Shown: one piece after another, positions 12,730-49,480 of the stretch
Layout: the number at the start of each line of letters is the position of its first letter
Numbering within the stretch: position 1 is the first letter of the stretch
Origin: Nitratifractor sp.
GTDB taxonomy: Bacteria; Campylobacterota; Campylobacteria; Campylobacterales; Sulfurovaceae
Length of the DNA: 54,820 nt
Assembly (NCBI GenBank): GCA_015488535.1
Contig: WFNP01000047.1
Location: forward strand, 1-54,820
Direction: 5' to 3'
The notes under the pieces: generated by a model
The model's database searches: none
What the model was told of the DNA's origin: nothing
The model's input: only the letters and a program-made list of their open reading frames with translations
Position numbers and translations under genes: made by a program

Positions 12730-12738
12730 TATAATACA

Positions 12739-12760
12739 TCTTGTGCCAAATGGCACAAGA
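12739..12760. terminator. Perfect 10-bp hairpin between convergent genes, probable bidirectional terminator
   Basis: TCTTGTGCCA, an AA loop, then TGGCACAAGA. It sits 10 bp after the ABC-F stop and 10 bp before the stop of the convergent outer-membrane protein gene. Flanks are AT-rich but lack a long T-run. Confidence 0.6.
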
Positions 12761-12769
12761 TAAGAGTAT

Positions 12770-33117: not shown

Positions 33118-33194
33118 TAATTACTGATATTACGCACATAAAACTATATTAAGCAATCTTTATCTGTGGTAGGACTTTAGTCCCACTACTATCC
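33118..33194. repeat. Interspersed element, left end plus CTTTAG-core hairpin
   Basis: The left end TACTGATATTACGCACATAA (from 33122) matches the ends at 29600 and 49207. Downstream, GGACTTTAGTCC (33172-33183) is a perfect 12-nt palindrome, extended by GTAG/CTAC-like flanks. No right end is seen. It lies between convergent pyrD and RNase T2 genes; the rest of the 137-bp gap holds nothing else I can identify. Confidence 0.55.
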
Positions 33195-41140: not shown

Positions 41141-41158
41141 ATAGGAGTTATATATTTT

Positions 41159-41257
41159 AGGAGACTAGGTTTCAACCTCGCATAAAAAAAGTTTAACTGA
41201 CTTTATAGAAAACTGTAATAACACCTCTTAATATGTGAGGCTAAAGCCTCACCTCCG
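41159..41257. repeat. Double-hairpin REP-like locus with one element end
   Basis: AGGTT-TC-AACCT (41167-41178) is a perfect 5-bp hairpin. GTGAGGC-TAAA-GCCTCAC (41235-41252) is a perfect 7-bp hairpin with a CTAAAG core. GGAG near 41160 and CTCC near 41253 could close an outer stem, as at 49251-49299. Between them TTAACTGACTTTATAGAAAA (41193 on) resembles the left end of the two-ended element. It lies between the convergent GGDEF and argG genes and may also terminate transcription. Confidence 0.6.
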
Positions 41258-41274
41258 AGATAATTAGAAATTTT

Positions 41275-48559: not shown

Positions 48560-49156
48560 ATGTGTAGATTTATGATAAAGAGTATGACGGTATCAGTGCT
48601 TATTTTCTCATTGACAGGATGTGTCCATCAAGAGCTTGTGCTTCCATCACTGCCTGGAGGGACAGGTGAACAGCAACAGCAAAGCTCAGTAGATGTATCC
48701 GATTTGAATGCCACCCCTGTAGGAGAGAGTAGAGTAGCTAGAATACCATTTCCTGTAGAAGAGTATAAAAGATTGAGTCAAATAGGAGAAGGCACAGTAA
48801 AAGGAAGTATATATCTAAAAGATGCCTATGGAAACAAAATTATAGGCAAACAGGTAAGACTATATCTAAATCCTGTCACAAGCTACTCCAGACAGTGGTA
48901 TCAAGAGAGTTATCTCAATGGCAAAAAGATGGACAAAGCCGATCCAAGACTCTTTAATTATCTTAAATTTACTACATCTGATACCCTCGGTCACTTCTCA
49001 TTTTATGGTGTGCCATCAGGAAAATATTACCTAATAGGTGTAGTAAGATGCTCTCAAGAGTGTGGTTATGACTCCCCTGTCAATATAAGAATAGCCAAAG
49101 AGATAGAGGTAAATGACAAAGAGACTGTAAATGTGGATTTGAGTAAGTCTATATAG
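48560..49156 (+). CDS. Lipoprotein with carboxypeptidase-regulatory/CNA-B-like beta-sandwich
   Basis: A lipobox LTGC places the lipidated Cys at residue 21 after a hydrophobic signal peptide (MTVSVLIFSLTGC). A Gln/Ser-rich spacer follows (GGTGEQQQQSSVDVSD). The rest reads as a beta-sandwich: EGTVKGSIYLKDAYGNKIIG, VRLYLNPVTSYS, TSDTLGHFSFYGVPSGKYYL and KEIEVNDKETVNVDLSKS, which is the pattern of regulatory/transthyretin-like domains. A single Cys pair in RCSQECGYD may form a disulfide. GGAGAAG precedes the ATG. The function is unknown; separated from mnmE by 20 bp, it may be cotranscribed. Confidence 0.72.
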   Translation: MCRFMIKSMTVSVLIFSLTGCVHQELVLPSLPGGTGEQQQQSSVDVSDLNATPVGESRVARIPFPVEEYKRLSQIGEGTVKGSIYLKDAYGNKIIGKQVRLYLNPVTSYSRQWYQESYLNGKKMDKADPRLFNYLKFTTSDTLGHFSFYGVPSGKYYLIGVVRCSQECGYDSPVNIRIAKEIEVNDKETVNVDLSKSI

Positions 49157-49448
49157 TTAACGCGAGTCTAGTTTAAGCTCTAATCACTCTAAAAAGCTAA
49201 ATTTTTAACTGACCTTACGCAGATAAAATTATATTGAACGATATAGCATAGGAGGCGGGGTTTTAACCCCGTATTGTGCAGGACTGAAGTCCTGCCTCCG
49301 AATAAATTGCATTATAAATTATAGTTGTTTTAAGTAATATGTGTAACATCAGTTTTCAACTTCATATCTATAGCAATTTGATAGACAAATATTATACTTG
49401 TCTCTTATCAGAGACTCGCGTTAGTTAATATGTGGGGCTAAAGCCCCA
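49157..49448. repeat. Composite repeat locus: element in inverted outer module, cloverleaf and CTAAAG hairpin
   Basis: The outer inverted pair is TTAACGCGAGTCT (49157-49169) and AGACTCGCGTTAGTTAA (from about 49412). Inside, a complete two-ended element (49206-49354) has the left end TAACTGACCTTACGCAGATA, and the right end reads on the minus strand AACTGATGTTACACATATTA. Within it, GGAGGC at 49251 and GCCTCC at 49294 can pair around two palindromes, CGGGGTT-TT-AACCCCG (49256-49271) and CAGGACT-GA-AGTCCTG (49279-49294), giving a three-way junction. TGGGGC-TAAA-GCCCCA follows at 49433-49448. The locus separates the convergent lipoprotein and trpB genes; I see no gene within 49157-49480. Confidence 0.65.
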
Positions 49449-49480
49449 TACTCTAAAAAACTAAAGCCAACTGACAAAAA

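Follow-up and report, generated by a model that had tools for sequence, protein, structure and literature searches.

The window analysed here, a 54,820-nucleotide stretch of contig WFNP01000047.1 from Nitratifractor sp. (assembly GCA_015488535.1), carries at positions 49251-49299 the sequence GGAGGCGGGGTTTTAACCCCGTATTGTGCAGGACTGAAGTCCTGCCTCC, which a sequence-only reading had described as a three-way-junction palindrome, a GGAGGC/GCCTCC stem enclosing two 16-nt palindromes. Both near-palindromes were found, each with two unpaired nucleotides at its centre, and so was the outer GGAG(GC)/(GC)CTCC. Inside each hairpin the GC of the outer GGAGGC finds an equally good partner, so that each hairpin can be read as GCxGGRYT-TY-ARYCCxGC preceded by the tag GGAG; the outer GGAGGC/GCCTCC is thus made up of the GGAG tags of two inverted units, each tag being followed by the first two bases of its unit's stem. 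The locus is accordingly composed of the tag of unit 1 (49251..49254, plus strand), its hairpin GCGGGGTT-TT-AACCCCGT (49255..49272, plus strand), a 5-nt spacer, the hairpin of unit 2, GCAGGACT-TC-AGTCCTGC on the minus strand (49278..49295), and the second GGAG tag (49296..49299, minus strand). The consensus of the subfamily to which unit 1 belongs is GGAG-GCGGGGTT-TC-AACCCCGC, and unit 2 reads GGAG-GCAGGACT-TC-AGTCCTGC on the other strand. The inverted dimer as a whole (no strand assigned) recurs in other genomes. Its predicted minimum-energy fold was a three-way junction both as DNA (-14.3 kcal/mol, z -4.95) and as RNA (-28.0, z -5.1); the fold energy was matched by none of 200 shuffles, and the predicted structure is real in the sense of lying beyond chance. 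A T-run is absent after both hairpins, indicating that this is not an ordinary intrinsic terminator, and an Rfam scan of the whole window returned a tRNA alone, with no match at 49251-49299.

The dimer lies inside a 262-bp MITE of subfamily A (49160..49421, no strand assigned), bounded by the left terminal inverted repeat ACGCGAGTCTAG (49160..49171, plus strand; consensus ACGCGAGTCTCG) and the right one AGAGACTCGCGT (49410..49421, minus strand; consensus CGAGACTCGCGT). The target-site duplication TAGTTA (no strand assigned) is present on the left at 49154..49159, where it overlaps the stop codon of the ORF 48560-49156, and on the right at 49422..49427. The element has terminal inverted repeats and a target-site duplication without coding capacity, and an empty-site comparison indicated that the two genes flanking it stand apart in relatives of the genus. 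The same genome contains 42-46 full or partial matches to the window repeat and about 20 good MITE copies. Many copies are at contig ends, as is expected of repeats that break the assembly; 6-8-bp duplications of an A+T-rich target were present in nine of the 14 complete copies listed. A second MITE subfamily of about 160 bp has identical ends and another hairpin pair (GGGGGTGGGACTTTAGTCCCAC / GTGGGGCTGAAGCCCCACCCCC), and a derivative of 75 bp lacks the hairpins. These features identify the carrier as a MITE. No long element with the MITE ends was recognised among the matches to the terminal inverted repeats in this genome. One MITE copy (L064, G000:C42:57970-58040) has the loop CTAAAG versus CTTTAG in its sister copies, its tip being inverted and its stem unchanged, suggesting template switching or an inversion across the stem.

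A covariance model of the unit detected 136-137 copies in this genome and up to 90 in relatives, the 20-40-nt imperfect palindrome in high copy number that is typical of REPs. In a common orientation, a unit has GG[A/G]G at its 5' side, to which an 8-bp stem is attached without a gap; the loop is TY, two bases long, and the tail behind the stem usually has A as its first base. The location is extragenic: none of the 126 units tested falls within an ORF of at least 90 aa, and the flanking ORFs are convergent in 37 cases and divergent in three (the ORFs are approximate, and not all of the units are independent). Adjacent units have their tags outward in 35 pairs versus inward in one, about 30 of the 35 tags-outward pairs having an identical short spacer; together with dimer-only matches in relatives, this shows the inverted doublet recurring as a unit, as in REPINs and BIMEs. 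Forty-five of 128 units stand alone, some of these apparent singles possibly having a diverged partner that the model missed.

Among 80 genomes (this one included), matches to the unit at E <=0.001 were obtained in 31 and none in the other 49, and the units are common to several genera of one Campylobacterota family. The whole MITE used as a query gave matches in 16 of the 80 genomes (this one included); outside its own genome nearly all of them are confined to the dimer (query positions 102-153) and its immediate surroundings, at about 98-165 of the query, and the MITE ends were private to its own genome within this set. The dimer is thus an independent entity, for which the MITE serves as local carrier. 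An IUPAC pattern of the dimer, searched against 84,980 named species, matched only Campylobacterota MAGs labelled Campylobacteraceae or Nitratifractor. In sister species (L148, L149, L150, L239) the dimer forms part of a larger composite repeat (TATTGGTGTATTGGTATAT - dimer - AAAAATACGCGTTGC..GCAACGCCC), which was seen at two or more loci. The dimer could alternatively be merely an internal part of the MITE without a separate life, the repeats elsewhere being relics of the same MITE, and the approximately 20 good copies that sit inside the MITE here would suit that explanation. It is already contradicted by the matches in relatives, which stop at or near the dimer, by the many single units and dimers located outside the MITE in this genome, and by the second MITE subfamily, whose identical ends enclose a different REP pair; we therefore regard it as highly improbable.

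The same plan had been claimed for a second locus of the window, 41159-41257. Its parts are present (GGAG at 41160-41163, AGGTTTCAACCT at 41167-41178, GAGGCTAAAGCCTC at 41236-41249, CTCC at 41253-41256), but the units are about 50 nt apart, versus 5 at 49251-49299, and the predicted RNA fold is one long arm with no three-way junction of these hairpins. The covariance model places one REP unit in each half of this locus, GGAG-ACTAGGTTTCAACCTCGC on the left (41158..41185, plus strand, E 1.6e-6) and GGAG-GTGAGGCTTTAGCCTCAC on the right (41231..41258, minus strand, E 5.6e-8). It also detected a single unit with a degenerate tag adjoining the right end of the MITE (49428..49455, minus strand, E 4.1e-6) and a weak possible unit at 33163..33190 (plus strand, E 0.003). 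Two further palindromic sequences were observed in the window: an intergenic hairpin with an 11-bp stem at 12738-12761 (ATCTTGTGCCAAATGGCACAAGAT), and a 26-nt palindrome at 455-480 (CATCCCAAAGCTCCAGCTTTGGGATG) that resembles those around a 177-aa Y1 gene of a relative (G048:C92; L191: CGTCCCAAAGCTTCAGCTTTGGGATG, GCGTCCCAAAGCTGGAGCTTTGGGAC) and possibly represents another REP-like family.

A second unit model that omits the tag (R2) was built against circularity and run on the other genomes. It recovered a tetranucleotide conserved immediately 5' of the hairpin: GG occupied positions -4/-3 in all 43 distinct complete units sampled from other genomes, and all 18 apparent singles there were within one mismatch of GGAG (some may have a diverged partner missed by the model). 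Singles in the window's own genome, which were detected with a model that includes the tag, hold it less strictly, 18 of 45 having exactly GG[AG]G and 32 of 45 being within one mismatch. Retention of the tag by units without a detected partner indicates that it belongs to the individual unit, not to the pair as such. By its sequence, the 5' tag here is GGAG (variants GGAA and GGGG) in place of GTAG.

For the covariation analysis, 36 different dimers were collected in this genome and in relatives, mostly by sequence similarity to the window element. The compensatory change proposed in the sequence-only reading holds for the hairpin stems, where both sides had changed 50 times versus 18.4 in shuffles and nine of 20 pairs had double changes (examples are GCGGGACT..AGTCCCGC versus GCAGGACT..AGTCCTGC, and GGGGTT..AACCCC versus AGGGCT..AGCCCT); an earlier count on 58 units gave a similar result for the stems, but those units had been preselected for pairing. 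Compensatory stem changes of this kind are a REP feature. The proposal fails for the outer GGAGGC/GCCTCC stem, which had no double change in the 36 dimers and a covariation score at or below shuffles whether four or six pairs were counted; covariation in all three helices, as a structured RNA would have, was thus not found. The outer stem is conserved as sequence because it consists of the tags of two inverted units. Inside the MITE copies the stems have changed mostly without compensation, a state that the same reading had taken to speak against its claim (15 broken, seven G-T, four compensated, and one doubly changed and broken), and their divergence of 4.7% is similar to the flank rates of 3.9% and 10%. 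Stem pairing has so been maintained over long times in the REP families and not in the recent MITE copies. Of the selected structure that had been proposed, the palindrome can be retained, and there is no evidence for a selected three-way junction.

The outer stem of the junction largely arises as a side effect of having two identical tags in inverted orientation, although the three-way fold may form, being the predicted minimum-energy state. That fold, the location of most units between convergent genes and the almost fixed spacing of the dimer would also agree with a selected structured RNA or DNA cruciform whose outer helix is functional, for instance an element that stabilises or terminates mRNA at convergent gene ends. 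We consider this unlikely: the outer helix is without covariation, apparent single units retain the tag, the stems decay in MITE copies, and the locus lacks both an Rfam match and a T-run 3' of either hairpin. REPs have known effects on mRNA ends, and by analogy a secondary effect of this kind is possible for the units described here.

The units are REPs as judged by their palindromic form and copy number, their location, the position of the tag, the loop and the orientation of the dimers (PMC3733652, PMC2817692). They share with the GTAG REP superfamily (Di Nocera et al. 2013, PMC3733652) the short tagged palindrome, a stem of 6-9 bp, TY loops, subfamilies with alternative complementary stem bases, the extragenic location and a preference for tags-outward dimers. 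They differ from it in the tag: GTAG variants occur at positions 2-3 (GYAG, GYRG, GTRG, GTMG, GTGG; PMC3733652), and the tags GGAG, GGAA and GGGG do not fit GTAG, GTRG or GYRG. The string GGAG is absent from the text of PMC3733652, and a GGAG tag was not found in the REP literature searched for that string, a search that covered little of the subscription literature. With REPINs (the REP doublet as a replicative unit; Bertels and Rainey 2011, PMC3116915) and BIMEs, the dimer has in common two inverted REPs with a short spacer that recur as one, the formation of hairpins and reported compensatory changes; it differs in that its arms are different palindromes, each self-pairing, with no full-length hairpin kept between the units. 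The carrier resembles MITEs such as NEMIS/Correia, RUP, ERIC and Nezha in being non-coding, with terminal inverted repeats, target duplications and many copies, and differs from them in having a REP dimer as cargo in the middle of its 262 bp and in being private to this genome. REP dimers within larger palindromes have precedents in GTAG-15 of A. variabilis and CGTC-1 of H. neapolitanus (PMC3733652). We conclude, with a probability of nearly four in five, that 49251-49299 is an inverted, tags-outward dimer of GGAG-tagged REPs, similar to BIMEs and REPINs, that was captured by a MITE.

A REPtron is a RAYT (TnpA-REP) gene flanked by its REPs (PMC2817692, PMC6006769, PMC8266576), and none was found in the window's own genome. 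The only Y1 transposase there (C36, 256 aa, NHYH...YIEQNP) was rejected as the mobiliser: no REP occurs at its ends, its surroundings carry inverted repeats of AGGGGTCAGGTGATAGTAATAG, and it resembles subclass 2.1, listed as not REP-associated (PMC6006769). Directly upstream of this gene is a 723-aa RTX/S-layer-like gene enclosed by the inverted repeat CTATTACTATCACCTGACCCCT / AGGGGTCAGGTGATAGTAATAG (L046, G000:C36, 2253-2276 and 4611-4634), which contains GGGGTCAG, fitting the GGGGWSAS motif of the 'TIRYT' genes (PMC3733652). As the units have REP features and lack both the GTAG tag and a REPtron in their own genome, they are best described as a tag variant of REP/REPIN repeats. Alternatively, the 49 bp could be a shortened IS200/IS605-like element, with one hairpin as its left end and the other as its right end in place of two REPs; in IS200/IS605 ends a tetranucleotide also lies 5' of the hairpin (PMC6006769). 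The units that stand alone, the inverted orientation of the pairs and the type of the genome's one Y1 gene, which is another one and not flanked by units, argue against such ends, and no complete IS200/IS605 copy with these hairpins as directly oriented boundaries was seen, making this origin very improbable.

In other genera a Y1 lineage of 171-175 aa was found, with identities to the G027 protein of 46-47% (G036, G013) and 89% (G044). In G027, G044 and G013 the gene is flanked on both sides by inverted GGAA-tagged hairpins of the GACTTCAGTC type and of the same design as the window's units (GGAA-GTGGCGACTTCAGTCCCAC, GGAA-ATGAGACTTCAGTCTCAT and similar), with TY loops and in most cases a GACT-TC/TT-AGTC core, in the manner of a REPtron from which they differ in having GGAA as the tag. 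The candidate RAYT matches REP_Tyr_transpos at 1.8e-17, under the curated cut-off, and its flanking hairpins have in two of the three genomes a one-base bulge that is absent from the window's units. An automatic scan found no tagged hairpins around one homologue (L209); another (L211, G058:C182) was observed beside an array of CTTGAACAAGTTCAAG-type palindromes (91-239 and 797-820), several with a GGAA foot. Nothing strong of the GGAA-type lineage was detected in the window's genus (G000-G012). A Y1 gene is missing from several species of this genus that carry 23-55 units, among them G005 and G009 (96-99% complete), with 40-50 REPs, and across the 80 genomes there was no evident correlation between presence of a Y1 gene and REP number. 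As the candidate RAYT was not found in the genus, the REPs of these species are probably orphans, either passed on by descent or remaining from an enzyme since lost.

Classical GTAG REPtrons occur in the same family, with GTAG-GTTCGGCTTTAGCCGAAC around a 175-aa RAYT (L187, G022:C58; L188, G039:C41); both host genomes also hold many GGAA/GGAG REPs. In the E. coli TnpA-REP, the region meeting the GTAG guide includes W94, Q95, E100, H101 and R104 (PMC6006769). In our alignment the GTAG-type RAYTs of the family keep WQ..EH..R, and the GGAA lineage has WA/WE/FA at the equivalents of W94 Q95 and DK at those of E100 H101, with R kept; these residue changes are consistent with a changed guide. It is tentatively proposed, at somewhat less than even odds, that GGRR-tagged REPs form a tag class additional to GTAG and CGTC and have their own RAYT lineage, whose guide-reading residues changed together with the tag. 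Independently of that proposal, we infer that the units were spread as single-stranded DNA by a RAYT-type tyrosine (HUH) transposase that reads the tag as its guide and the hairpin as its binding site, the candidate enzyme being the lineage flanked by GGAA-tagged hairpins with the same loop. In the window's own genome, one dimer was caught in the 262-bp MITE and multiplied, probably by the MITE's own transposase.

For claims of three-way junctions, the locus illustrates that paired tags can mimic a selected one. The interesting part of the finding is the combination of an unusual tag and a putatively matching RAYT lineage with a REP dimer multiplied by a MITE. In this genome a MITE has amplified a REP dimer, and by this route REPs can spread without a RAYT. 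The differently tagged REP family, taken together with a RAYT lineage whose hairpins share its design and whose residues at the guide contacts are altered, offers a natural experiment on guide recognition, and if the GGRR class is real, the guide specificity of TnpA-REP would be readable from natural enzyme-repeat pairs.
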